From assembly GCA_009841105.1 (NCBI GenBank), contig VXMM01000013.1, positions 1 to 63,719 of the forward strand: a stretch of 63,719 nucleotides of DNA, written 5' to 3'. This document shows positions 16,656-43,354 of the stretch, piece by piece; position 1 is the first letter of the stretch; every line of letters begins with the position of its first letter. Below the pieces are notes generated by a model that saw only the letters and a program-made list of their open reading frames with translations, searched no databases and was not told the DNA's origin. Origin of the DNA: Acidimicrobiia bacterium (GTDB lineage: Bacteria; Actinomycetota; Acidimicrobiia; Spongiisociales; Spongiisociaceae). The position numbers and the translations under genes were made by a program.

Positions 16656-17558
16656 TTAGGCATCGAGCTTGTAGAGGCTGGCAGCGGTACCTCCCATAAT
16701 CGCGGCCAGTTCCTCGTCCGAGAAGGGTTCGGAGCCCTGCTGCTCGGCGACATCGTTGACCCTCCGGTAGAGCTCCGGCACCGCCGCGAAGTCCCTGTCG
16801 ATGCGGACCTTGTCGCTGTTGCCCGAGCCGTACATGGCCCGGTCGGTCGCCACGTACGACCTGAGCATGGCGAGGGCGTCATGAAGCGGCTCGGGCGCTC
16901 CGCCGGCGAAGTGGCAGAGATCGGCATGGAAGTTGGGATGCTTCGCCACCATCAGGATCCCCTTGGTCACCCAGGGCCAGTTGATGACGACGATGACCTT
17001 CATATCGCGGAAGCGCCGTCCGATACCGTCCAGCAGGAACGGATCGCCCAACTCCAGTGACGCGTTGATGATGGGGGTCCATCCCGTGAAGAAATGCACC
17101 GGGATGTCCAGTTCGATGGCCTTCTCGTATAGCGGGTCCAGGGTGCGGTCGTTCGGGGAGTAGAGCTGGTAGCTGGGAACGAGCTTGAGGGCCCGGAAGT
17201 CCAGTTCCTGCACGCACCGCTCCAGTTCCTCGACCGCCCAGGGGATGCCCCGCATCGGATCGATGCAGGCAACGCCCTTCAGCCGGTCCGGGTACTTGGC
17301 GACCTGGTCGGCCGTGTAGTCGTTCGGTACGTACACCTCATACTCGTCGGGATGGTCGGGATGGAAGGTGGTCCGACGGATGTCGCTCCCCTGGACCATC
17401 CCGATGTCGATGCCCGAACTGTCGAGCAGGTCCACCATCCACTCCCCATCGGTGGTGCCGTACTCGACCCCGTACGGCCTGTACAACTCCTGCATCCACC
17501 AATGGGGAACCTGCTCCGGCACCTCGGTGAGGTGTAGATGGCAATCTACGGTGACCAT
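16656..17558 (-). CDS. Amidohydrolase_2 family protein, paralogue 1 (variant metal site)
   Basis: This 300-aa TIM-barrel protein is one of five close paralogues in the window. It starts MVTVDCHLHL, with the HxH pair at 7 and 9. The later ligands differ from the family: the position of the third His (about 157) is Phe in HFFTGW, the fourth (about 192) is Ile in VIVVINWPW, and the GSD aspartate is Gly in YGSGNSD. The HPDHP segment (66-70) and AKHPNF are conserved among paralogues. The ATG at 17558 was chosen because it aligns with the other copies. It lies just upstream of the PhyH gene on the same strand, and divergent from permease module B. Confidence 0.85.
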   Translation of the reverse strand: MVTVDCHLHLTEVPEQVPHWWMQELYRPYGVEYGTTDGEWMVDLLDSSGIDIGMVQGSDIRRTTFHPDHPDEYEVYVPNDYTADQVAKYPDRLKGVACIDPMRGIPWAVEELERCVQELDFRALKLVPSYQLYSPNDRTLDPLYEKAIELDIPVHFFTGWTPIINASLELGDPFLLDGIGRRFRDMKVIVVINWPWVTKGILMVAKHPNFHADLCHFAGGAPEPLHDALAMLRSYVATDRAMYGSGNSDKVRIDRDFAAVPELYRRVNDVAEQQGSEPFSDEELAAIMGGTAASLYKLDA

Positions 17559-17729
17559 GGGCTCTCCTGCGGGTGTCGGGCGGGATCGGAGCGGGCGTAC
17601 CGGTAGGAGAATAGACAGGGATCGGACGACGGACACCGACGGTCTGGCACGTGGCGCGCTGTGGCGGAGGCCACAAGGGATGGATACACTCGACGGCCGG
17701 CGGGCAGCCGAGGCGTGAGGAGACCTGTC

Positions 17730-22382: not shown

Positions 22383-23168
22383 ATGGTCACCAACAGTCCT
22401 TCGACCCATCTCGCTCACGAGGACTCGGGTTTCCTCACCGCTAGGGGCCTCAGCAGGAGCTTCGATGGCGCGCTGGTGGTCGACGACGTCTCTTTCTCCA
22501 TCGGACGGCAGGAGATATTCGGGTTGCTAGGCCCCAACGGGGCCGGCAAGACGACCACGATCAGAATGCTCTCCACCGTGCTGGCGCCCGACGCGGGCGA
22601 CGTGACCATCGGCGGCCACTCGGTGCTGCGGGAGGCGGACGAGGTGCGGAAGATCATCGGCGTCTGCCCCCAGGAACTCGCCCTCTACGAGGAGTTATCG
22701 GCCCGGGACAATCTCGTCTTCTTCGGACGGATGGCGGGACTCGGTCGTAGGGAGGCGAAGGATGCCGCCGCCGAGAACCTGGGGTTCGTCGGGCTGCTCG
22801 ACCGCGCGTCGGACGCGGTTCGGAAGTTCTCTGGGGGCATGAAGCGGCGTGTCAACATCGCGGTGGCCCTGATGAGCAGGCCGCAACTCCTGTTCCTGGA
22901 CGAGCCCACGGTTGGAGTCGACCCGCAGTCCCGCAACCACATCTTCGAGACGATCCTGCGGCTCCGGGACGAGGGCATGACCCTGCTCTATACCACGCAC
23001 TACATGGAGGAGGCCGACCGGCTGTGCGACAACATCGGCGTGATGGACCACGGCCGGCTCATCGCGCTGGACACACCCGTAGGGCTCAAGTCCGCGATCG
23101 GCGATCCCGACGAAGTCACGCTGGAACAGGTCTTCCTCAACCTCACGGGCCGCAGTCTCCGCGACTGA
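22383..23168 (+). CDS. ABC-2 type exporter ATP-binding protein (DrrA/CcmA-like)
   Basis: The 261-aa ATPase has Walker A GPNGAGKTT near residue 50, a Q-loop CPQELALYEEL, signature FSGGMKRR, Walker B LLFLDEPTVGVDP and the switch His in LLYTTHYMEEAD, all in the expected order for daunorubicin-type exporters. It ends one base before the ATG of the first of two ABC-2 permeases, forming a three-gene export operon. The cargo is unknown. Confidence 0.9.
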   Translation: MVTNSPSTHLAHEDSGFLTARGLSRSFDGALVVDDVSFSIGRQEIFGLLGPNGAGKTTTIRMLSTVLAPDAGDVTIGGHSVLREADEVRKIIGVCPQELALYEELSARDNLVFFGRMAGLGRREAKDAAAENLGFVGLLDRASDAVRKFSGGMKRRVNIAVALMSRPQLLFLDEPTVGVDPQSRNHIFETILRLRDEGMTLLYTTHYMEEADRLCDNIGVMDHGRLIALDTPVGLKSAIGDPDEVTLEQVFLNLTGRSLRD

Positions 23169-23169
23169 C

Positions 23170-24339
23170 ATGCTCCGGCCACTTTCCATTGCCTGGATCG
23201 AGCTGAAAAGGTTCGGCGCGGACCGTGGCGCCCTCGCATTCGGCATAGCCCTCCCCATAGCCCTCTTCGCATTGATGTACGGCGCCTTCGGCCAGGGCGT
23301 GTCCTTCAGCGCGACGGCGAACATGGTCGACCTGGACGGCGGCCCCGTTGCCGCCGAGCTGATCGACCGTGTCTCCGCCTTCGACGGGTTGGAGGTGGAG
23401 ATGCTCACCGAAGCGGGGGCCGACGCGGCACTGGACCGCTCGCAGATCCTGACGGCGGTGTTCATCCCCGCCGGGTTCTCGGACAGGCTGGAGGCAGGCG
23501 AGCCGGCGTCCGTACTCTTCAAGCGGCGCGGCTCCGGGGGAGACTCGGGCCAGGTCGCCTCGCAGATCGTGCAGGGCCTGGCGCAGGACATCGCCGCCGA
23601 GTTCGAGATACGCGAGCTGGTGCGCAGCCGGCTCGACGGCAGGGACGTCCCGGAGGCCGAGATCGTGGCGACTGTCGGGGCTCTAATGGAACAGGCCGGC
23701 GTTGCTCCCGCCGTCGCGGTCGAGGTCCGGGCTGTGGGCGAGGAACAGAACGTGCTGGACAGGCTCATCCCGGGCGTGCTGACGATGTTCCTGATGTTCG
23801 CCGCCACCATCTCCGCCGCATCGATCATAACGGAGCGCAATGCGGGGACGCTGGAGCGTCTCCTCACGACCCGGCTCTCGGTGAACCAGCTCTTCGTGGG
23901 CAAGTTCCTGGCGAGCTCCGGAAGAGCGATGGTCCAGGCCCTGATACTTCTCTCCCTGGCTTTTGCCGTCCTCAGGGTGGGCGACGCCGCCACGTTCGCG
24001 CAGGTGGTGGCATTCAGCCTGCTCATCTCCGCGGCGGTCAGCTCGCTCGGTCTGGTGGTGGCGGGCCTGGCCCGGACCGAGGACCAGGCGACATGGGGGT
24101 CGGTCTTCCTGACCATGACCCTGACCGTCTTCAGCGGCACCTTCGTCAGTGTGGGAGAGACGGGGGTTTTGGCGTTCCTAAGCAAGCTCACCCCGAACAA
24201 GTACGCCATCGACGCCATAGGCGACATCCTGGCGGGCAGCGGCGGGCTGGTCGGACAGGGACCGGAAGCCGCCATCCTGGGAGGCATCGCGGTGGTCGGC
24301 GTCCTCGTGGCCCGTGTGGCCTTCCGCACGGCGCAGTAG
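23170..24339 (+). CDS. ABC-2 type transporter permease
   Basis: The 389-aa membrane protein has an N-terminal span after SIAWIELKRFGADRGAL, a large extracellular domain, and five C-terminal spans. The ABC-2 motif ERNAGTLERLLTTRLSVNQLFVGKFL precedes the spans. Near the C-terminus, LSKLTPNKYAIDAI is typical of YhgE/Pip-like and DrrB-like permeases. It pairs with the following permease. Confidence 0.87.
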   Translation: MLRPLSIAWIELKRFGADRGALAFGIALPIALFALMYGAFGQGVSFSATANMVDLDGGPVAAELIDRVSAFDGLEVEMLTEAGADAALDRSQILTAVFIPAGFSDRLEAGEPASVLFKRRGSGGDSGQVASQIVQGLAQDIAAEFEIRELVRSRLDGRDVPEAEIVATVGALMEQAGVAPAVAVEVRAVGEEQNVLDRLIPGVLTMFLMFAATISAASIITERNAGTLERLLTTRLSVNQLFVGKFLASSGRAMVQALILLSLAFAVLRVGDAATFAQVVAFSLLISAAVSSLGLVVAGLARTEDQATWGSVFLTMTLTVFSGTFVSVGETGVLAFLSKLTPNKYAIDAIGDILAGSGGLVGQGPEAAILGGIAVVGVLVARVAFRTAQ

Positions 24340-24352
24340 GGGGAACGTCGAC

Positions 24353-25534
24353 TTGAGACTCGTGCTGAGGCAGTCGCTCATCATCGCCGCGAAGGACACG
24401 CGGGTGTTCCTCAAGGATTGGTTCGGACTCGGGTTCGCCCTGCTCTTCCCGCTCATGTTCGTGCTCGGCTTCTCCCTCGCGCTGCGCAACATCGGCCCCG
24501 GAGACGAGCGGCTCACGATCACTGTCGCGACCCAGGAGGAGGAAGGGGTAAGCCACCAGATCATCGGGGCACTCGCCGAGGAGAGCATCGTCGACCTGAC
24601 CGTGATGGAGTACGGCGCGGCCGTCCGGGCCGTGGAGGATGGGGACATCGGAGGGTTCGTCGCGTTTCCCGCCGACTTCACATCCGACCTGCAAGGAGGC
24701 CTTCCCACGAAGCTGGAGGTCGTCGCGCAGATCGGTGACCCGGAGACGGAAGCCGCGATCCTCGGGTTCGCGAACGCCGTAGCTGTGGCCTCCTCCAACA
24801 CGAGGACCGCCGTCCAGGCCATCGTGCAGCTTGCCGGCGAGGAGGCCTTGCCCCAGGACATGGCGGCCTTCGGACGGGACAGCGACCTGCTCCGCTTCGA
24901 GACCGAGCAGATCGGCCCCGTGGAGGCGTTCAACGCCGGTGACTTCACCGTGCCCGGCTACCTCACGATGTTCGTGTTCTTCGCCGCGGCCCTGGCCGCC
25001 GAGGCGATCACGAGGGAGCGGGCGAACCACACGATGGAGCGGCTCATGGCCAACGGCACCCGGCGGGAGTCGGTCGTGGTCGGCAAGTACCTGGGCTCCG
25101 TCTACCGCGGTGCCATGCAACTCGCCGTGCTCTGGGGAGTCGGCCTCGTCGCCTTCCGCATCGACCTCGGCTTCTCCCCCGCCACCGTCATCATGGTCTC
25201 CGTGCTGATGGTGCTGACCTCGGCAGCCTTCGGTGTGATGCTGGCAGGCCTGGTGCGCACTACGGCCAGCGCCAGTTCGGCGGCCGTGCTGGCTTCGCTG
25301 GTGCTCGCCCCCGTCGGGGGCTGCTGGTGGCCGCTGTTCGTCACGCCCGAGTGGATGCAGACCCTCGCGAGGATCACGCCGCACGGCTGGGCGAACTCGG
25401 CCTTCAACAAGCTGATGCTCTTCGGTGCCGGAGGCGGCGACGTGGTCCTGGAAATGGCGGCTCTGGCCGCTTTCGGCGTGGGCTTCCTGGTCATAGCTTT
25501 CGCTCGGTTCCGCCTGTCACCACACGCGTCCTGA
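24353..25534 (+). CDS. ABC-2 type transporter permease (second)
   Basis: The 393-aa membrane protein is homologous to the preceding gene, with the motif ERANHTMERLMANGTRRESVVVGKYL followed by five C-terminal spans and ITPHGWANSAFNKL. A TTG at 24353 with GGGGGAA upstream gives a natural start directly before RLVLRQSLIIAAKD. The open frame begins further back, within the previous gene. Together the ATPase and two permeases form a heteromeric exporter. Confidence 0.85.
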   Translation: MRLVLRQSLIIAAKDTRVFLKDWFGLGFALLFPLMFVLGFSLALRNIGPGDERLTITVATQEEEGVSHQIIGALAEESIVDLTVMEYGAAVRAVEDGDIGGFVAFPADFTSDLQGGLPTKLEVVAQIGDPETEAAILGFANAVAVASSNTRTAVQAIVQLAGEEALPQDMAAFGRDSDLLRFETEQIGPVEAFNAGDFTVPGYLTMFVFFAAALAAEAITRERANHTMERLMANGTRRESVVVGKYLGSVYRGAMQLAVLWGVGLVAFRIDLGFSPATVIMVSVLMVLTSAAFGVMLAGLVRTTASASSAAVLASLVLAPVGGCWWPLFVTPEWMQTLARITPHGWANSAFNKLMLFGAGGGDVVLEMAALAAFGVGFLVIAFARFRLSPHAS

Positions 25535-25706
25535 CCGCCCTACTCGACCAGGACTAACGCATAACAACCCAACCTCCCGGCTGCGAAACCCTCCACACAC
25601 ACCTCCGCATCGTCTTCCCAAGTTCGAGGCCGGACCTGCCCTGATCGGCATGGCCACCCCGCCGCGAAGACCGAGGCGCCTTCGCGCCGGCGGTACGTGC
25701 AGTCTC

Positions 25707-25963
25707 CTACGTCTGGCCGCCGTGCTTGTCGCCACCGTCGACACGGACCTCGCAGCCGGTCATGAAGCTCGCGAGGTCCGATGCGCAGAACAAGGCAACC
25801 CTCGCAACGTCGTCTGGCATGCCGACGCGGCCCAGCGGTAGCTCCCGGCTCATCTGCTCGGCCAGGTCGTCCAGGGCCCAGCCGCCGTCCGCGGCCGACT
25901 CCCGTGACCACCGCGGTGCGCCCACCAGAGTTACGAGTCCCTCGATTCGTCCCGTCGCTCCAT
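25707..25963 (-). pseudogene. Short-chain dehydrogenase remnant
   Basis: Pieces of an SDR remain in different frames. Reading from an ATG at 25963, MERRDESRDS is followed after a one-base shift by GGRTAVVTGVGRG, the cofactor glycine motif. This runs directly into the C-terminal LGRVGMPDDVARVALFCASD and a VDGG end in another frame, stopping at 25707. The central catalytic region with YxxxK (about 150-170 residues) is missing. The flanking 25535-25706 holds no gene that I can see. Confidence 0.55.
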
Positions 25964-26032
25964 GTCCGCGACGGCCACATCCACTTCCTTCGTCTTGTAC
26001 GGATCCGGCGCGCGAGCGACCGACGGTGGCGT

Positions 26033-26905
26033 CTACGCGCTGATTCCGAAGAGTCCCGCCGCCGTACCGCCCATGATCCCGGCCATCTCCTCTTCGGTGA
26101 TCTCGGTTCCCTGGCTTCGGGCGATCTCACGGGCGTCACGGTAGAGATCCCTGGCGTCCGTGTTGTCGGATCCGAAGACCACCCGGTCGACAGCCCCGAG
26201 TTCCTTCAGCTTCATAAGGGCGCCAGCCAGGACTTCGGGTCCCCAGGCGGTCCATCCCGCCATCTCGGCGTAGAAGTTGGGGTGTTTGGCGACCACCGCC
26301 GCCCCTTCATCCACCCACGGATAACCGAGATGCGCCACGATGACCTTCAGATCCCGGTAGCGGCGTCCGACGTCGTCCAGCTGGATCGGATCCTGGAACT
26401 CCATCGCCGAGTTGATGGTGGCCGTCCAGCCCATGTGGATCATCACCGGTATGTCCAACTCGAGACACTTCTCGTAAAGCGGGTCCAGCCGCCGGTCCTT
26501 CGGGGAGTAGTGGTGATAGGTCGGTACGAGCTTGAGCAGCCGGAAATCCAGTTCCTTGACGCATCTCTCCAACTCGAGCACCGCCGCCGGGATGTCCCGG
26601 AGCGGATCCATCGCCGCCACGCCATAGAGTCGCCCCCCGGACAGGGCGACTTGGTGAGCGACGTAGTCGTTGGGAACGAAGACGCGGTGGTCGCCAGGAT
26701 GATCGGGGTGGTAGGTCGTGCGGCGGATATCTCCACCCTGGATCATGCCGATATCGAATCCGGTGGCATCCAGGTGTTCGACAATATCTGAACCGTCCAC
26801 GGAACCGACGTCCCATCCCCATGGCGCGTACATCTCCCGTACCCACCACTCGGGGGCGTGCTCGGGAACCTCGGTGACGTGCAGGTGACAGTCGATCGTT
26901 ACCAT
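26033..26905 (-). CDS. Amidohydrolase_2 family protein, paralogue 3 (canonical metal site)
   Basis: The 290-aa protein is the only one of the five paralogues that keeps the full set of ligands: His7-x-His9 in VTIDCHLHV, His157 in VMIHMGW, His192 in VIVAHLGYPW and Asp247 in VFGSDNTD. It is therefore the best candidate for a working hydrolase or decarboxylase of the amidohydrolase_2/ACMSD type. It begins three bases after the stop of paralogue 4, so they are one transcript. The SDR remnant lies just downstream. Confidence 0.88.
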   Translation of the reverse strand: MVTIDCHLHVTEVPEHAPEWWVREMYAPWGWDVGSVDGSDIVEHLDATGFDIGMIQGGDIRRTTYHPDHPGDHRVFVPNDYVAHQVALSGGRLYGVAAMDPLRDIPAAVLELERCVKELDFRLLKLVPTYHHYSPKDRRLDPLYEKCLELDIPVMIHMGWTATINSAMEFQDPIQLDDVGRRYRDLKVIVAHLGYPWVDEGAAVVAKHPNFYAEMAGWTAWGPEVLAGALMKLKELGAVDRVVFGSDNTDARDLYRDAREIARSQGTEITEEEMAGIMGGTAAGLFGISA

Positions 26906-26908
26906 TGG

Positions 26909-27814
26909 TCAGTCCCCCAATCTGTACAGGCGCGCCGCGCTACCACCCAGTATCGCCGCCATCTCCTCGTCCGTGAACGGCTCGGCCCCTCTCTCCCGGG
27001 CAACCCGGTTCACGCTGCGATAGACGTCCGGCACCGTGGCTTCCTCCCGGCCGACCCGCACCTTGTCGCTGTTGTTCGATCCGTACAACACCCGGTCGAG
27101 CGCCGACAGCGACCGGACCCGGTCCAGGGTCTCGAACAGAGCCTCGGGCCCGAGTTCGGCGTAGTGATACAGGTCGCCGTGGAAATTGGGGTGTTTCGCC
27201 ACCAGCAGGAGGCACTGGTCGATCCAAGGATCGGCCATCGAGATGATCACCTTGAGGTCGCGGAAGCGACGGCCGACCTCGTCGAGTTGCACCGGATCGG
27301 CGTTTTCGAGCCTGGCCATGATGATCGGGGTCCATCCGGTGAAGATGTGGGCGGGGATATCCAACTCGATGCACTTCTCGTAAATCGGATCCAGGCGCCG
27401 GTCGTTGGGCGAGAAGTGAAGGTACGAACCGAGCAGCTTGAGGGAGCGGAAGTCCAACTCGTTGACACATCGGTCCAGTTCTTCCACTGCGGCACCCACA
27501 TCCCGGATCGGGTCGATACATGCAACGCCCTTCAACCTGTCCGGAAAGAGAGCGACCTGGCGGGCCGTGTAGTCGTTGGGAACGAATACCTCGTGTTCGG
27601 CGGGATGATCGGGATGGTAGGTCGTCCGCCGCATGTCTCCACCCTGGACCAGACCGACGTCGACTCCGGAGCGATCCAAGAGGTCGACGATCCACTGCCC
27701 GTCATAGCTGGCGAGAGCTCCACCCCCGTACGGTCGGTACATCTCGGTCAACCACCACTCGGGTATGTGGTCCGGGACCACGCCGAGGTGCAAATGACAG
27801 TCGACGCTGACCAA
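26909..27814 (-). CDS. Amidohydrolase_2 family protein, paralogue 4 (variant metal site)
   Basis: A TTG at 27814 starts a 301-aa protein, M(L)VSVDCHLHLG, which aligns with the ATG starts of the other copies. The frame is open further upstream, but that part overlaps the divergent SDR gene and has no similarity to the family. The HxH pair is kept, while the third His is Phe (HIFTGW), the fourth is Met (VIISMADPW) and the Asp is Asn (YGSNNSDK). It is nearly contiguous with paralogue 3, the intact member. Confidence 0.85.
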   Translation of the reverse strand: MVSVDCHLHLGVVPDHIPEWWLTEMYRPYGGGALASYDGQWIVDLLDRSGVDVGLVQGGDMRRTTYHPDHPAEHEVFVPNDYTARQVALFPDRLKGVACIDPIRDVGAAVEELDRCVNELDFRSLKLLGSYLHFSPNDRRLDPIYEKCIELDIPAHIFTGWTPIIMARLENADPVQLDEVGRRFRDLKVIISMADPWIDQCLLLVAKHPNFHGDLYHYAELGPEALFETLDRVRSLSALDRVLYGSNNSDKVRVGREEATVPDVYRSVNRVARERGAEPFTDEEMAAILGGSAARLYRLGD

Positions 27815-27982
27815 CGAGGCCTCCCATCGTGGATAGTGTGATACGGCGGTTGGGCGGTCATTGTACAGAGCGGCCCAGGCGAGACTGCCCGGCGCCACCG
27901 GGATGTAGGCTGGCGCCGGCTGGATCTCACGAGACGTTCTTGAGCATCCCTCCGTTGCCGGCGCCACACGGGAGGACTTGGA

Positions 27983-28759
27983 ATGATGGGGTTGTCGGGT
28001 TCGAGGGTTGTCATAACCGGCGCGGCGACCGGGATCGGCCGCACGGTGGCCGGGAGGTTCGTCGAGGCCGGCGCCCGAGTGCACATTTGCGACATCGACA
28101 CCGATGCCTTGGCAGCGGCCCGGGAAGAAGTGCCCGGTGTGTCCGTAACCCTGGCCGATGTCGGATCGGAAAGGGACATCGACCGGTTGTTCGCCGAAGC
28201 GGTGGAGCGACTCGGAGGGCTGGATGTCCTGGTGAACAACGCCGGGCCGAGCGGCCCCACGGTCCCGGTCGACGAACTTACTTACGAGGATTGGCGCGCC
28301 TGCATCAGCGGGAACCTCGACGGCGCCTTTCTCAGCACGCGGGCCGCCGCGCCGCACCTCAAGAAGGCCGGAGCGGGGGCCATCGTCAACATGTCGTCCG
28401 TCTCGGGACTCTTCGGTTCCCCGCTACGGAGCCCGTACGCGGCGGCCAAGTGGGCGTTGCTGGGTCTGACCAAGACCTGGGCTGCCGAACTCGGACCGTA
28501 CGGCATCCGGGTGAACGCGGTATGTCCGGGAGGCGTGGCCGGTCCCCGGCTCGACCGGGTCATGCAGGAACTGGCCGACGAACGAGGCGTTCCCTTCCAG
28601 GAGGTGTCCGACGAATGGAAGATGCAAGCCTCTCTCCGGACCTTCATCGAACCTGACGAGATCGCGAACCTGGTCCTGTACCTGTGCTCCCCCCTGAGCG
28701 CCGGTATCACGGGAGCGGTCATCCCCATCGACGGTCACCTCGAGACCCTGATCGGCTAG
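27983..28759 (+). CDS. Short-chain dehydrogenase/reductase (SDR)
   Basis: The 258-aa classical SDR has the cofactor motif TGAATGIGR near residue 12, NNAGPSG, the catalytic Ser in NMSSVSG and YAAAKWALLG (YxxxK), then the C-terminal AGITGAVIPIDG. It would oxidise a secondary alcohol or reduce a ketone using NAD(P). The start ATG at 27983 is followed by a second at 27986. It is divergent from the amidohydrolase pair. Confidence 0.9.
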   Translation: MMGLSGSRVVITGAATGIGRTVAGRFVEAGARVHICDIDTDALAAAREEVPGVSVTLADVGSERDIDRLFAEAVERLGGLDVLVNNAGPSGPTVPVDELTYEDWRACISGNLDGAFLSTRAAAPHLKKAGAGAIVNMSSVSGLFGSPLRSPYAAAKWALLGLTKTWAAELGPYGIRVNAVCPGGVAGPRLDRVMQELADERGVPFQEVSDEWKMQASLRTFIEPDEIANLVLYLCSPLSAGITGAVIPIDGHLETLIG

Positions 28760-36165: not shown

Positions 36166-36828
36166 ATGAGAACCATCACTGTTCAGGCCACCATCCGCCA
36201 GGATCACCTGGAAAGGTTCCTGACGGCGTCGATCGCCAACGCCCGTGCGTCTGTGGCGACCGAGCCAGGGTGCCGCCGTTTCGACATCTTCGGTGACGAC
36301 ACAGACCCGGCCAGGGTGGGATTCAACGAGGTCTACGACGATGACGGCGCGGTCGAAGCCCACGGCGAGTCGGCGCACTTCGCAGCCTGGTTTGCGGCTA
36401 CCGATGGAATGGCGGATCAACTGGTCTGGGCGACGTGTCGCAGCCTCTACAGCACCGCCAAGGCGCGCCGTGACGCGACCGGGGAGCGATCCGAAGATCC
36501 TCCATCCACCGGGGGGATGGTGGTCTACCAGGCGCGCATCTCCGTGCGACCCGAGGACACGGACGGCTTCATCGCCTCTGTAACGGAGCAGGCCCGTGCG
36601 GCCGCAGCAGCGGAACAGGGGCTGCTCCGCTTCGACATCAACCAGAATCTCGACCTCGCCACCGAGTTCTGGCTCTATCGGGTCCACACCGATGCCGCCG
36701 CGGCGGGCGACCACGCGGCCGCGCCCTACACAGCTGCCCATCTCGATCGGTACGGGGGGTACTACTCGGACGGAGCCCTAGAGCCCATCTCCGGACCGAA
36801 CATCTGGCCACCTGACGCCGAATGGTGA
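36166..36828 (+). CDS. Tandem antibiotic-biosynthesis-monooxygenase (ABM) domain protein
   Basis: The 220-aa protein contains two copies of the dimeric ferredoxin-like ABM fold. The first begins ITVQATIRQDHLERFLTA and includes EPGCRRFDIFGD and VGFNEVY. The second begins VVYQARISVRPEDTDGFIAS and includes EQGLLRFDINQN and FWLYRVH. Such proteins are cofactor-poor monooxygenases or isomerases of the YgiN/LsrG kind. The stop overlaps the ATG of the following amidohydrolase by seven bases, so the two are coupled and probably act in one pathway. Confidence 0.85.
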   Translation: MRTITVQATIRQDHLERFLTASIANARASVATEPGCRRFDIFGDDTDPARVGFNEVYDDDGAVEAHGESAHFAAWFAATDGMADQLVWATCRSLYSTAKARRDATGERSEDPPSTGGMVVYQARISVRPEDTDGFIASVTEQARAAAAAEQGLLRFDINQNLDLATEFWLYRVHTDAAAAGDHAAAPYTAAHLDRYGGYYSDGALEPISGPNIWPPDAEW

Positions 36829-38285
36829 CCCCACCTGCCGGAGGCTCCTCGCAGGATCCGAGCACTTCGAAGCCCGTCACTTGCGACCTGCTGGTCACCG
36901 GTGGGACGGTGGTCACGGTGGACGACCGGCGCCGGGTCATCGATCGGGGAGCGGTGGCAATCACCGGGGACCGTATCGCGGCGGTCGGCGCCGCTCGTGA
37001 TCTGGGTCACTACCGGGCCGACCGGGTCATCGACGCCACCGGAAGCGCGGTCCTGCCCGGGCTGGTGGACACCCACCAGCACCTGTTCCAGTACCTGACG
37101 CGGGGTCTCGGGGAAGGCTTGGAGCTGTGGCCGTGGTTGTCGGACTTCATGTGGCCGGTCACCACTGCCATCTCCATCGAGGAGGCCAGGATCGGTGCTC
37201 AGCTCGGAGCGGTGGAGGCCGCCCGCTCCGGTGTCACCACCCTGCTCGACAACCACTACGCCCCCACCGACTTCGCATCCACTCTCGCCGTGGCGGACGC
37301 CATCGCCGCGGTCGGGCTGCGGGGTGCCGTTGCCAGGGGCATGACCGGGGAACTGACCCCGATGGCGGCCAAACACGGCCTGGCGGGCGAGTTGTTCCGC
37401 TACTCCAACCAGGAGGAGATAGACATTACCCGGGCCTGTATCGAGGCTCGCCCTCCCGGCGCACGGGTGGGGGTCTGGCCGGCGCCCCTCAACATCATCT
37501 ATGTCGACCAAGAACTCGTGGTCGAAGCGGTCGGCCTGGCGCACGAGAAGGGCGTCGGCTGGCATTCCCACTGTTCGGAGGCGGCGAACGACCCCGTCTT
37601 CTATCTCGAGGAGTACGACCGCAGGCCGGTGGTGTGGCTGGCCGAACAGGGCCTCCTGGGCCGGGGCGCCACCCTGGCCCACGGGATCTTCCTCGACGAC
37701 CGCGAGGTCGAGTTGGTCGGAGGTTCCCGGACCGGTATCGCCTACTGCCCCATCTCCCATCAGTACATTGCCTTGGGGGTGATGCGCCTCCGCGACCTGC
37801 GCGGCGCAGGCGCCACCGTCGCGCTCGGTCTGGACGGAGGCAGCGGACACCGGCTGGACATGTTCTCCTGCATGAAACAGGCGGTCCTCCTCCAGCGCGT
37901 CCATACCCGGAATCCCACCGAGTCGAACGGTGAAGAGGCGATCGAGCTGGCTACCCGCGCCGGCGCCGAGTACATGGGGATCGAGGCCGGCGTCATCGCG
38001 CCGGGCAAGCTGGCGGACCTGGTGATCGTCGACCAGTCCGCTCCCCACCATTCACCGCTTCACCGCACGGTGGCGTCCGTCGTCTACTCGACCGGCCCCT
38101 CCGATGTGACCCACACGATCGTCGGCGGCGATGTCATCTTCGAGAGCGACAGGTGCACGATGGTTGACGAAGCGGCAATAGTCGAAGAAGCGAACGGTCG
38201 GGCCGCAGACCTCGTGGCCCGGGCCGGGCTCAGTCCCCTGCTCGAACCGTGGCGAACGACCGCAACGCCCTCTGACGGGGCCTGA
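36822..38285 (+). CDS. TRZ/ATZ-type amidohydrolase (8-oxoguanine/s-triazine deaminase-like)
   Basis: The 487-aa metal-dependent hydrolase has the small beta-sandwich flanks and a barrel with HxH in VDTHQHLFQYL, a metal His and Glu-like pair in WHSHCSEAAND, the fourth His in LAHGIFLDD and Asp in LGLDGGSGH, and a C-terminal GVIAPGKLADLVIVD. The family deaminates or dechlorinates N-heterocycles such as guanine analogues. The presence of HSHCSE favours a deaminase. The exact substrate is unknown. It is coupled to the ABM gene upstream. Confidence 0.87.
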   Translation: MVTPPAGGSSQDPSTSKPVTCDLLVTGGTVVTVDDRRRVIDRGAVAITGDRIAAVGAARDLGHYRADRVIDATGSAVLPGLVDTHQHLFQYLTRGLGEGLELWPWLSDFMWPVTTAISIEEARIGAQLGAVEAARSGVTTLLDNHYAPTDFASTLAVADAIAAVGLRGAVARGMTGELTPMAAKHGLAGELFRYSNQEEIDITRACIEARPPGARVGVWPAPLNIIYVDQELVVEAVGLAHEKGVGWHSHCSEAANDPVFYLEEYDRRPVVWLAEQGLLGRGATLAHGIFLDDREVELVGGSRTGIAYCPISHQYIALGVMRLRDLRGAGATVALGLDGGSGHRLDMFSCMKQAVLLQRVHTRNPTESNGEEAIELATRAGAEYMGIEAGVIAPGKLADLVIVDQSAPHHSPLHRTVASVVYSTGPSDVTHTIVGGDVIFESDRCTMVDEAAIVEEANGRAADLVARAGLSPLLEPWRTTATPSDGA

Positions 38286-38370: not shown

Positions 38371-38416
38371 TCCGTCGGCAGCAAGACGGGGCGCCGCCTA
38401 GGGGTGATAGCCGTCT
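38371..38416 (+). promoter_or_regulatory. Candidate 5'-leader switch with two mutually exclusive hairpins
   Basis: CCGTC (38372-38376) can pair with GACGG (38385-38389) around an 8-nt loop. The same strand, extended to AGACGG (38384-38389), can pair instead with CCGTCT at 38411-38416. The second hairpin ends four bases before the AAAGGA ribosome-binding site of the BKACE gene. This competing-stem layout resembles attenuators and riboswitches, but it does not match any riboswitch class I recognise. Confidence 0.3.
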
Positions 38417-38430
38417 CGAAAGGAACACCG

Positions 38431-39396
38431 ATGGGCGAAATCGAAGCGACTTGGGACTTTCGCGACCCGTACCTCTGGATGCGGAAGACAGCCAGGAGTG
38501 CTATGCCGCCCCTGATCATCACGGCGGCCATCAGCGGCGGCGGCCACGGCAAAGAGTCGAATGCCGCCCTTCCGGAGACACCGGAGGAGCAGGCCCAGGA
38601 GGCCCGGCGGGCATACGAGGCCGGCGCGTCGCAGATACACGTTCACGTTCGGGATCCCGACGACTGGAGCCAGTGCACCGGCAACCCCGACGACTACGGG
38701 AAGGTGAACGGGATGATCCGGGACCTGTGCCCGGACGTGATCATCAACAACAGCACGGGAGGCGGGCCCACCCTGACCACGGAGGAACAGTTCTCGCCAC
38801 TGTTCGCCGACCCCGCCCCGGACGTGGCCACCCTCAACCTGGGTCCGTTCATGTCGAAGTTCACCATGCCCGAGCGACCCTCCCACCTTCCGCATCCCCG
38901 CGGGCCGGTTGACTACGACATGTGCAGCGGCACAACCTACGGCGAGCTGAACCACTACGCGTCGGTGATCGCCGCGCGCGGGATGAAGCCGGAGTTGGAG
39001 ATCTACGACCCGGGCCAGTACTGGGTGCTCCGCGATCTCATCTACAACGAGAACGTGACACCTCCTTACATGGTGCAGTTCGTCCTGGGTGGGCAGACCG
39101 CCTCGTTCCCGACCCCCGCCAACCTCATGTCGCTCATCAGCGAGCTGCCGGCGGGTGCGCTGTACTCGGTGATCGGCACGGGGCCGTTCCAGATCCCGAT
39201 GAACGTCCTCGGGATCCTGCTCGGAGGCCATGTGCGGGTGGGGCTGGAGGACAACATCTACTACCGGCGAGGCGAGAAGGCCACCGGGAACGCCCAGCTG
39301 GTGAGCCGTATCCGACGGATCGCCGAGGAGATGAACCGCGAGATCGCCACCCCTGCCCAGGCCCGCCAGATGCTGGGCCTCCCGCAAGTCGCATGA
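38431..39396 (+). CDS. BKACE family protein (beta-keto acid cleavage enzyme, DUF849)
   Basis: The 321-aa protein has the BKACE hallmarks: PLIITAAISGGGHGKE near the N-terminus, the zinc-binding HxH in GASQIHVHVRDPDD, and the C-terminal Glu ligand in HVRVGLEDNIYY. The family condenses a beta-keto acid with acetyl-CoA to give acetoacetate and a new CoA ester, as in 3-keto-5-aminohexanoate cleavage. The ATG at 38431 with AAAGGA upstream is preferred to the GTG at 38404. The GrdE-like gene begins 58 bp downstream, so the two are probably co-transcribed. Confidence 0.9.
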   Translation: MGEIEATWDFRDPYLWMRKTARSAMPPLIITAAISGGGHGKESNAALPETPEEQAQEARRAYEAGASQIHVHVRDPDDWSQCTGNPDDYGKVNGMIRDLCPDVIINNSTGGGPTLTTEEQFSPLFADPAPDVATLNLGPFMSKFTMPERPSHLPHPRGPVDYDMCSGTTYGELNHYASVIAARGMKPELEIYDPGQYWVLRDLIYNENVTPPYMVQFVLGGQTASFPTPANLMSLISELPAGALYSVIGTGPFQIPMNVLGILLGGHVRVGLEDNIYYRRGEKATGNAQLVSRIRRIAEEMNREIATPAQARQMLGLPQVA

Positions 39397-39454: not shown

Positions 39455-40789
39455 ATGAACTCCGGTCCGGGCCGCCAGATCCTGGAGGTCGGCGCCTTCG
39501 ACGTGTCCGACGTCCGGGCAGGTCCCGAAACAGCCTTCGCCGACGGCATCCTCACCATCGACATCGGGGAACTGGAGGAGCTGCTGGCCGCGGATCCCGA
39601 CCTGGCCGCCGTCTCGGTGGAGATCATCAGGCCGGGGGAGTCGGTCAGGGTGGTAAACGCGATCGACGCGGTGGAGCCGCGAATCAAGGTTGACCCTCCC
39701 GGCGCGGACTTCTCGGGACTCCTCACCCGGCCGAGGCTGGTGGGCACCGGCACCACCCACGCCCTGAAAGGGGTGGCGGTGGTGGAGACCGCCCTTCCGG
39801 TACCAGGGGAACCGCGCTACTGGCGGGAGGCCGTCTTCGACATGGCCGGGTCCACCGCCGGATACTCGCCTCTTTCGGAACTCATCAACGTCGTGGTCTC
39901 GTGCGAGCCGACCACCGCGCTGCTGGAGAGTGAGGACCGCCCCACCAACGTCTTCGAGGGAACCCCGGAGGCGGTGGAGTACAACAAGGCAGTCCGGCTG
40001 GCCGGCCTAAAGGCGGCCCGATACCTGGCGGAGACCACCCTCGGGCAGGAACCCGACCGGGTGGACACCTACGACCTGGCCCCGTCGCCCGTCAACGGGC
40101 TACCGGCGGTCGTCTACCTGTACCAGTTGGCCATCCCGTTCCTGCATGGCGAGATCGCTCCCGGCGCCGGGGCGATCGGCGGCGCCGCCCACCTGCCCAC
40201 GCCGATCCACCCGAACGAGTTGCTCGACGGAGCTCTGGTGTGCGGCTGGAACGCCATCGCGTGCATGAGGGAACTCACCTACACGGTGCAGAACCACCCG
40301 ATCATCGAGGACCTCTACGCCCGCCACGGCCAAGACATCGATTTCCGGGGCGTGGTCCTCTTCACCAACGGAGACACCCGGGCCGCCAAGGAGCGCCTCG
40401 CCAACCACGCGGCCAACCTGGCGATCATGATGGGCGCCGAAGGGGCATTGATCAACTACGCCGGCGGCGGGCATCCCGCTGTCGACGCCATGATGATATG
40501 CAGGAATCTGGAGCGGCGGGGAGTGACGACGACGATGCTGTCGATGGAGATGGCGGCCAACCCGGGCGAGTCCGGCTTCGTCCACTTCGTCCAGGAAGCC
40601 GATGCCATCGTGAGCACCGGGAACTACGAGGAGACCGTTCTCTTCGAGCCCGTGGAGCGGGTGATCGGTGGTGACGAACTGATCCGGATCGAGAGCGACC
40701 CGTCCGGTGCGTTCGAGGCCCCGCTGGCGATCGTGATGGCCAGCACCCACCAGTTCGGCGGGACACGTATACGCGGCGAGGAGTACTGA
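39455..40789 (+). CDS. GrdE-like glycine/betaine/sarcosine reductase component B, alpha/beta proprotein
   Basis: The 444-aa protein matches the component B proprotein family in its first half (VRVVNAIDAVEPRIKVDPPG, YNKAVRLAGLKAARYLA) and in the diagnostic TPIHPNELLDGALVCGWNAI stretch, followed by a cysteine at residue 270 and YTVQNHPII. In known GrdE proteins cleavage before a cysteine in this region yields two subunits with a pyruvoyl group that forms a Schiff base with the amine substrate. Cys270, encoded at 40262-40264, is the likely equivalent, though its immediate context (Ala-Cys-Met) should be compared with known sites. GGGAGGG precedes the ATG. Confidence 0.85.
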   Translation: MNSGPGRQILEVGAFDVSDVRAGPETAFADGILTIDIGELEELLAADPDLAAVSVEIIRPGESVRVVNAIDAVEPRIKVDPPGADFSGLLTRPRLVGTGTTHALKGVAVVETALPVPGEPRYWREAVFDMAGSTAGYSPLSELINVVVSCEPTTALLESEDRPTNVFEGTPEAVEYNKAVRLAGLKAARYLAETTLGQEPDRVDTYDLAPSPVNGLPAVVYLYQLAIPFLHGEIAPGAGAIGGAAHLPTPIHPNELLDGALVCGWNAIACMRELTYTVQNHPIIEDLYARHGQDIDFRGVVLFTNGDTRAAKERLANHAANLAIMMGAEGALINYAGGGHPAVDAMMICRNLERRGVTTTMLSMEMAANPGESGFVHFVQEADAIVSTGNYEETVLFEPVERVIGGDELIRIESDPSGAFEAPLAIVMASTHQFGGTRIRGEEY

Positions 40790-40799
40790 GAGGCAACCG

Positions 40800-42113
40800 A
40801 TGGTGAGAATCGTCCACTATCTCAACCAGTTCTTCGGGGGACTGGGAGGCGAGGACCAGGCAGGCATGGCCCCGGTCTCCGAACCGGGCCCGGTGGGGAC
40901 GGGTCGGGGGTTGACCCGATTCCTGGGAGGCGACGACCGGATCGTGGGGACGGTCGTCGGGGGCGACAACTACATGGCGCAAGGTGGGAACGGCGCGGTG
41001 GAGGAGGTTGTCGGGTTGATCTCCCGGTTCGATCCGGACGTCGTGGTGGCCGGACCGGCCTTCGGGTCCGGGCGGTACGGCCTGGCCTGCGGCGCGGTCT
41101 GTGCGGCGGTGATCGAACAACTCGGCGTGCCCGCGCTCACCGGACTCCATCCTGACAGCCCGGGCGCCGCCGAGTACCGGGCATGGGTCCCGATCCTCGC
41201 CACCGCCGAGACGGCCGCCGGCATGGGTGCGGCACTTGAGCGCCTCGCGCCCCTGGCGTCCAGGCTGGCACGGGGTGAGGCACTCGGCAGCGCCGCGGAG
41301 GAAGGCACCCTTACCAAGGGTCTCCGTCGTAATACGTTCGAGGACGTTCGGGGCTCCACCCGGGCGATCGACATGCTGCTGGCGAAGATGCGCGGAGAGT
41401 CCTTCACAACGGAGTGGCCGCTCCCCAGCTATGAGCCCGCTGAGGCCTCCGAGCCGATCTCGAGCGGCGCCTCCTTCCGGTTGGCCCTGGTGACCGAGGC
41501 GGGGATCGTCCCGGCGGGCAACCCCGACCGGCTGCCATCGGGATGGGCTACCGACTGGATGACATACCCGATCCAGGACCGGGACGGCTTCGCGGAGGGC
41601 GAGTTCGAATCGGTGCATGGTGGTATCGATACCAGCTTCGCCAACCAGGACCCTGACCGCCAGGTGCCGCTCGACGCCGCCCGATCCATTGAGCAGGAGG
41701 GCCGGCTGAGCCTCCACCCCGACCTGCTCAGCACGACGGGCAACATGGGCACCCTGCGCGACATGACCCGCATCGGCGCCGAGATGGGACGCGCCCTGAT
41801 CGCCGACGGGGTTCAGGCCGTGATCGTGGGTTCGACCTGAGGAACGGGGACGCGTAGCGGGTCTACGCTCGCCAAGTCGATCGAGAACCAGGGCATTCCG
41901 GCGGCCCTGGTTACCGCGCTGGTTCCTCTGGCCGAATCGGTAGGCGTTCTCCGGATCGTCCAGGGCAAGGCCGTAACCCATCCCTTCGGGGACCCCGAAC
42001 TCGACGTGGACGACGAGTTGAGGTATCGCCGGCGGGTCGTGGAGACCGCCATCTCGGCACTCGAGGCCGAGGTCTCGGAGCCCACGGTCTTCGACGTCCA
42101 GGCAGTGTCCTAG
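40800..42113 (+). CDS. GrdB-like selenoprotein, reductase component B gamma subunit (in-frame TGA read as Sec347)
   Basis: The family start VRIVHYLNQFFGGLGGED and the segments VVGGDNYM and FGSGRYGLACG identify a GrdB/GrdF/GrdH-type subunit. The frame meets TGA at 41838-41840 directly after VIVGST, which is exactly where family members have selenocysteine (ST-U-GT). Translation in frame continues GTGTRSGSTLAKSIENQGIP for a total of 90 further codons to TAG at 42111-42113. Reading through gives 437 aa with Sec at 347, close to the 436 aa and Sec350 I recall for clostridial GrdB. The usual cysteines after Sec are Gly and Ser here. It probably makes the Se-carboxymethyl-type intermediate with the GrdE-like partner encoded 10 bp upstream. 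Confidence 0.87.
41841..41870 (+). promoter_or_regulatory. Candidate bacterial SECIS element
   Basis: Immediately after the TGA, a perfect 6-bp stem, GCGTAG (41852-41857) with CTACGC (41863-41868), closes a 5-nt loop CGGGT. The loop begins 17 nt after the TGA and has G as its second base, in line with the spacing and loop-G rule described for bacterial SECIS hairpins read by SelB. It lies within the coding sequence, as bacterial SECIS elements do. Confidence 0.72.
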
Positions 42114-42451: not shown

Positions 42452-43354
42452 CTAGGCGCCGATCTTGTAGATCCTCGCGGCGGAACCGCCCAGGATCGCT
42501 TCCATCTCGTCGTCCGAGAACGGAGGTGCGCCCCGCCGCTCAGCCACCTCGTTGACGCTCCGGTACACATCGGGGACGGTTGACTCCTCCCGACCTACCC
42601 GGACCTTGTCGCTGTTGTTGGACCCGTACAGCACCCTGTCGAGCGCGGACAGCGACCGGAACTTCTCCAGCGCCCCGTAGAGAGGCTCCGGCCCCATCTC
42701 TGAATAGTGGTACAGGTCCGCGTAGAAGTTGGGATGCTTCGCGACCATGAGAGTGCTTTGGTCGATCCACGGCACCCCGAGCGCCACAATGAGTTTCAGG
42801 TCGCGGTAGCGGCGGCCGACCTCGTCGATGAGCACCGGATCGGCGTGGACCAACTTGGCGGTGATGGTCGGGGTCCAACCCGTGAAAATGTGCACCGGGA
42901 CGTCCAGGTCGATACACCGCTCGTAGATCGGGTCGAGCCGGCGGTCGTTCGGCGAGTAGTGCTGGTAGGCGGCCACCAGCTTGACCGCGCGGAAGTCCAG
43001 TTCCAGGACGCAACGGTCGATCTCCTCCAACGCTGCCGCGACGTCACGGATCGGGTCCACGCAGACGACCCCCTTGAGCCGATCCGGGAAAAGCGCGACC
43101 TGCTCGGCGGTGTAGTCGTTGGGGACGAACACCTCATGCTCCTCGGGGAAGTCCGGATGCCACGTAGTTCGGCGGATATCGGCGCCCTGCACCAGGCCCA
43201 CGTCGACACCGGAGCGGTCCAGCAAGTCGACCATCCAGGCCCCGTCGGTCGACCCGAAGACGCCCCCGAACGGGCGGTACATCTCGGTCATCCACCAGTC
43301 GGGAACCTGGCTGGGCGTCTCGGTCAGATGAAGATGACAATCAACCGTGACCAT
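42452..43354 (-). CDS. Amidohydrolase_2 family protein, paralogue 5 (variant metal site)
   Basis: The 300-aa protein is closest in sequence to paralogue 4 (shared YGSNNSDKVRVGREE and TVPDVYRSVN). It starts MVTVDCHLHLTE with the HxH pair. The third His is Phe (VHIFTGW), the fourth His is Gly/Leu (LIVALGVPW) and the Asp is Asn (YGSNNSD). The HPDFP segment lacks the second His kept by the other copies. It lies downstream of the VOC gene on the same strand and convergent with the GrdB-like operon across repeat copy A. Confidence 0.86.
   Translation of the reverse strand: MVTVDCHLHLTETPSQVPDWWMTEMYRPFGGVFGSTDGAWMVDLLDRSGVDVGLVQGADIRRTTWHPDFPEEHEVFVPNDYTAEQVALFPDRLKGVVCVDPIRDVAAALEEIDRCVLELDFRAVKLVAAYQHYSPNDRRLDPIYERCIDLDVPVHIFTGWTPTITAKLVHADPVLIDEVGRRYRDLKLIVALGVPWIDQSTLMVAKHPNFYADLYHYSEMGPEPLYGALEKFRSLSALDRVLYGSNNSDKVRVGREESTVPDVYRSVNEVAERRGAPPFSDDEMEAILGGSAARIYKIGA

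Follow-up and report, generated by a model that had tools for sequence, protein, structure and literature searches.

The window analysed here, 63,719 nucleotides of DNA corresponding to contig C51 of a 3.05 Mb draft genome (97.5% complete), contains a forward frame that stops at a TGA and then carries on in the same phase. This raises the question of whether the TGA ends the gene or is read as selenocysteine (Sec) and, if the latter, in what kind of reaction the product would take part. The two features concerned are:

40800..42113 (+): predicted grdB-like selenoprotein gene (component B, beta-type subunit), 437 aa with Sec347; TIGR01918 417 bits, PF07355 380 bits
41838..41840 (+): in-frame TGA, predicted to be read as selenocysteine; present in 37/37 distinct actinobacterial homologues and 26/26 full-length class-level matches

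From the ATG at 40800 the frame runs for 346 codons up to ...VIVGST, reaches the TGA, continues for 90 sense codons (GTGTRSGSTLAKSIENQGIP...) and ends at a TAG (42111-42113). The TGA is the sole interruption between 40800 and 42113 and would place Sec at residue 347 of 437. Re-reading the frame confirmed the TGA coordinates and the VIVGST motif given in a first-pass annotation of this DNA. The 90 open codons are weak evidence alone because such runs are common in GC-rich DNA: the window is 66% GC, and 17 of its 47 long frames ending in TGA are followed by at least 90 open codons. Other evidence is therefore required, and what rises above chance is an end-to-end family match, the conservation of the TGA and of a hairpin in every homologue compared, and the pattern of selection. 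The read-through product matches TIGR01918 (GrdB/GrdF/GrdH) from residue 3 to residue 432 with a score of 417 bits against a cut-off of 65.45, bearing out the proposed GrdB-family membership, and the PF07355 match (380 bits) reaches up to the Sec site. The TGA was likewise correctly placed at the family's ST-U-GT site, being kept in all 37 distinct sequences. The size of the protein and its Sec position, which that annotation described as agreeing with clostridial GrdB, fall within a few residues of Clostridium sticklandii GrdB (Sec 350 of 436) and GrdH (Sec 352 of 440; PMC3091704). Moreover, pN/pS is 0.08-0.16 downstream of the TGA against 0.18-0.30 upstream, which points to purifying selection on the 90 codons.

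Immediately after the TGA lies the following element:

41852..41868 (+): bacterial SECIS-type hairpin; stem 41852-41857 with 41863-41868, loop CGGGT at 41858-41862, G at second loop base

Bacterial SECIS elements are hairpins close after the UGA with a G near the start of the loop. The window hairpin has six base pairs, starts 11 bases past the TGA and carries a G as the second base of its loop. Its DNA is identical in the 12 members of the window's clade, whilst 70% of the codons for invariant residues elsewhere vary synonymously; nowhere in the clade is a longer stretch free of synonymous change than codons 351-356 (TRSGST), and rare codons are used there (TCT, 6 of 138 Ser codons; CGT, 18 of 186 Arg codons). 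Among 26 distinct sequences the pairing is kept in 100% of cells, with double-sided changes at two pairs; the covariation amounts mainly to one evolutionary event (T-A to A-T in the 12 sequences of the window's clade) and a second in locus L116 (T-A to C-G). The A-T swap is a Cys (TGC) to Ser (AGC) replacement matched by a silent TCA to TCT change that restores the pair, and illustrates clearly how a SECIS can limit protein sequence and codon choice alike. The energy of the hairpin is reached by 0.6% of synonymous recodings; this signal is weak (10%) in the clade representative L106, and the energy of the full 45-base segment past the TGA is not unusual against synonymous recodings. The SECIS case therefore rests on conservation and covariation.

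We then judged the presence of other genes in the genome from profile searches and selected stretches. The first-pass annotation had named two grounds for doubting a Sec codon, a complete genome devoid of selenocysteine machinery and relatives in which the downstream codons were lost or frameshifted. The genome instead encodes a tRNA-Sec (77 bits, cut-off 47), SelA and SelB side by side (435 bits, cut-off 268; 320 bits, cut-off 242) and SelD (372 bits, cut-off 125), and the second ground does not hold either in the homologues compared, all 37 of which keep the TGA. The SelD gene (locus L031, G000 C50:4322-5248) itself has an in-frame TGA near the N-terminus (SPGGG-U-ASK), as in a Sec-containing selenophosphate synthetase. 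Judged by homology and conservation, the TGA-containing grdB-like gene is a firm selenoprotein prediction. Standard gene calling truncates it, as had been foreseen, and does the same to the GrdA, SelD and PrdB-like genes of this genome, all of which have an in-frame TGA; selenium use in Acidimicrobiia is therefore easily underestimated.

The gene has a partner directly upstream and a set of recurring neighbours:

36822..38285 (+): TRZ/ATZ-type amidohydrolase or deaminase, conserved neighbour; PF01979 156 bits; 64% identical paralogue beside grdC-grdA
38404..39396 (+): BKACE (beta-keto acid cleavage) family enzyme; PF05853 272 bits
39404..40789 (+): grdE/grdG-like partner (component B, alpha-type subunit, probable proprotein); PF09338 327 bits; GrdG 238.6 bits, below the equivalog cut-off
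40262..40264 (+): codon of partner Cys287, putatively at the position of the GrdE pyruvoyl-forming Cys242; invariant in the clade
42452..43354 (-): amidohydrolase-2 family protein, convergent neighbour; PF04909 108 bits; 53% identical paralogue beside grdC-grdA

The partner gene (alternative start ATG 39455) stops 10 bases before grdB and adjoins it in 12/12 clade members. Cys287 aligns with a Cys at about 244-245 of most sarcosine-like homologues; the pyruvoyl peptide of GrdE begins at residue 242 (PMC9908766). The BKACE gene lies next to grdE in 11 of the 12 clade loci and likely belongs to the same operon as grdEB, and its product reached no substrate-specific NCBIfam model at cut-off. The amidohydrolase-2-like proteins are an expanded family, with three paralogues in the window (16656-17636, 26033-26905 and 42452-43354, all on the minus strand) that share an MVTxDCHLHxTE start.

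A single-copy GrdA (199.6 bits, cut-off 130; TGA in a CFV-U motif) adjoins the one copy of GrdC (587 bits, cut-off 450). PF09338 and full-length PF07355 genes each occur once in the genome, which leaves the window's grdEB as the sole component B available to this GrdA and GrdC. The two gene pairs are on different contigs. The grdC-grdA locus (L030, G000 C68 ~22465-28500) has no grdEB, and on its flanks lie paralogues of the two amidohydrolases that neighbour the window's grdEB. This arrangement is suggestive of one functional unit split in two. The best GrdD (component C alpha) score in this 97.5% complete assembly was 23.8 bits against a cut-off of 350; canonical acetyl-phosphate formation is thus unsupported, although acetate kinase is present. 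The genome also has a COX1 match (PF00115, 517 bits), which we take to be the subunit of an aa3-type oxidase.

None of the substrate-specific models was reached. The window protein scored 393.7 bits with the glycine reductase GrdB equivalog TIGR01917 (cut-off 602.2), 417.5 with sarcosine GrdF (800) and 370.4 with betaine GrdH (775); its partner scored 238.6 with sarcosine GrdG (780) and 127.4 with fluoroacetate reductase FarE (675). Published GrdB and GrdF motifs (PMC9751293) are absent from the window protein, an absence that carries less weight than the scores, since the motifs come from other phyla and are not fully matched by any actinobacterial homologue in this set. The UxxCxxC motif of GrdB (PMC13188914) has become UGTGTRS (UxxGxxS), leaving no Cys, in 12/12 members of the window's clade; other actinobacterial homologues have it reduced to a single Cys (UxxxxxC). 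On these scores and motifs the protein is not assignable as a glycine, sarcosine, betaine or fluoroacetate reductase. An AlphaFold2 model from 8 close sequences was unusable (mean pLDDT 39), and no solved structure matched either subunit by sequence. The locus resembles GrdB/GrdF/GrdH systems in full-length homology, the ST-U-GT site, length, a grdE-type partner directly upstream and the presence of GrdA and GrdC in the genome, but differs in falling below every substrate-specific cut-off, in the missing glycine and sarcosine motifs and in UxxGxxS replacing UxxCxxC. It also shares a related Sec domain with D-proline reductase PrdB and PrdB-like proteins (59 bits to TIGR04483), but scores well below cut-off with proline reductase subunit models, is of full GrdB length, has a GrdG-type rather than PrdA-type partner and coexists with a separate PrdB-like TGA gene on contig C38. 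That gene (locus L026, G000 C38:3474-4310, minus strand) encodes a short protein with an in-frame TGA in a UxxC motif (V-U-PVC) and scores 153 bits with PrdB (cut-off 300).

Our main reading, to which we give a probability of about 0.82 with the proposed mechanism included, is that the locus encodes component B, which binds the substrate, of a selenoenzyme complex of the glycine-reductase type. SelB and Sec-tRNA would read the UGA, aided by the hairpin just downstream, and the GrdE-like partner would probably be processed at Cys287 to its pyruvoyl form. By analogy with the glycine reductase reaction model (PMC13188914, PMC10838667), Sec347 would attack a small substrate of the amine or acid type at its alpha carbon; the leaving group would depart and a carboxyalkyl-selenoether would form. 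The carboxyalkyl group would then move in trans to the one GrdA selenoprotein (CFVU motif), and transfer from GrdA to GrdC would yield an acetyl-type thioester. This reading is supported by the read-through family match, the Sec machinery, the conserved TGA and hairpin and the co-occurrence of one component B, one A and one C-beta. Against it stand the missing GrdD, the separation of grdEB from the grdCA contig and the loss of the resolving cysteines of UxxCxxC; by the first two, and by the aa3-type oxidase, the genome departs from known GrdB/GrdF/GrdH systems. The COX1 match, moreover, is at odds with an oxygen-sensitive fermentative role.

The substrate would be none of those with curated models. 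An amine-containing one seems favoured, because the partner keeps Cys287 at the pyruvoyl position, unlike FarE and GrdI, which lack that cysteine (PMC10838667), and unlike the partners in the largest actinobacterial clade. The closest rival, itself unlikely, is a lineage-diverged component B of sarcosine (N-methylglycine) reductase fed by an amidohydrolase route, for instance creatinine or hydantoin breakdown. GrdF and GrdG are indeed the top-scoring substrate-named models, the pyruvoyl-position Cys is kept and an amidohydrolase adjoins the locus; however, the GrdF score is about half its cut-off, the published GrdF motif is absent, and sister lineages have a separate, better-scoring GrdF-like clade, with genome G270 carrying both. 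We consider it improbable, more so than sarcosine, that the enzyme reduces betaine and that the adjoining BKACE frees betainyl-CoA from dehydrocarnitine. A BKACE acting on dehydrocarnitine is known and BKACE is a conserved neighbour here, but the GrdH score (370 against 775 bits) is low, this BKACE fits no substrate-specific model, and the partner retains the Cys absent from GrdI (PMC10838667). The nearest 3-hydroxyacyl-CoA dehydrogenase, besides, scored only weakly as a carnitine dehydrogenase. A carnitine route through this nearby gene was rejected, finding no support beyond generic family similarity.

There is very little chance of a reductive dehalogenase acting on a halogenated marine metabolite, of the type of the fluoroacetate reductase FarEB of Cloacibacillus (PMC10838667). 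The window shares with FarEB a component B recruited to a common GrdA/GrdC and, as in FarB, has no CxxC after Sec (PMC10838667), and the partner matches FarE weakly (127 bits). That score is far below the cut-off of 675, however, and equalled or bettered by sarcosine-like and other GrdG-type partners; FarE is without the pyruvoyl cysteines whereas the window partner keeps Cys280 and the presumptive pyruvoyl Cys287, and neither a FarA transporter nor a FarC radical-SAM gene was recognised next to the window grdB. Least credible of all, with a negligible chance of being right, is that the TGA is a true stop (a truncation or pseudogene) followed by 90 codons of leftover sequence: TGA is a common ordinary stop in this genome, as in the upstream grdE-like and BKACE genes, and open runs of that length are not rare in the window, but the identical TGA in 37/37 homologues across the phylum, the purifying selection past it, the constrained, covarying hairpin and the complete Sec machinery all speak against it.

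Returning to component B of a glycine-reductase-type complex, we sought its distribution. Glycine-reductase-type enzymes are described from anaerobic fermenters, and the first-pass annotation had called a Stickland-type selenoprotein unexpected in an actinomycete. Homology and surprise both stand; amino-acid fermentation, however, is not shown, because an aa3-type cytochrome oxidase is present, GrdD was undetected and all substrate-specific models failed. Nor is the case isolated, since 24 of 395 sampled genomes of the class carry 26 full-length copies, each with exactly one TGA, and full-length GrdB genes with the TGA also occur in other classes of the phylum. In the window's genus, 9 of 10 sampled genomes have a full-length TGA-containing gene. 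A phylum-wide sample had the partner subunit in 16 of 396 genomes, and the neighbouring grdB has the TGA wherever it was retrieved. Seven MAG relatives (five labelled Acidimicrobiia bacterium, two only bacterium) all keep both TGA and hairpin; their names presumably come from sponge projects, and the source organism is probably a marine-sponge symbiont. When 37 proteins were placed in a tree, the window's clade (12 rows, one family only) stood apart from a sarcosine-like clade, from a large one spanning other families and classes, and from small groups; the deep branching order is unsure. Several distinct component-B clades occur within one actinobacterial class.

In the open-licence papers searched, glycine-reductase-type selenoproteins are not described for Acidimicrobiia; earlier reports elsewhere, or automatic annotation of these MAGs, may exist. 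Neither selenoproteins nor glycine-reductase-type enzymes are mentioned in a paper on UBA5794, an uncultured order that includes sponge lineages; that the window belongs to this order is a guess. Here an aerobically equipped actinobacterium encodes such an enzyme with an altered active site. At slightly under even odds, we propose that oxygen-respiring Acidimicrobiia of one family-level lineage, probably associated with sponges, adapted glycine-reductase chemistry to a new substrate, using a component B without either Sec-protecting cysteine, without GrdD, and coupled to BKACE and amidohydrolases. If true, an aerobe would possess a new selenium-dependent pathway for reductive bond cleavage. 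The several component-B clades in one class, together with a genome carrying an aa3-type oxidase, open the way to testing which substrates this chemistry accepts and how well it tolerates oxygen.

Lastly, partial PrdB-like matches with a TGA occur in about 100 of the 395 class genomes, some in multiple copies, and a few copies are without the TGA (G227:C14, G394:C62). In the largest actinobacterial clade (L101-L114) the GrdE-type partner has no Cys at the pyruvoyl position, and at several of its loci (L101, L102, L104, L108 and L113) grdC-grdA has a thioredoxin-like gene close by.
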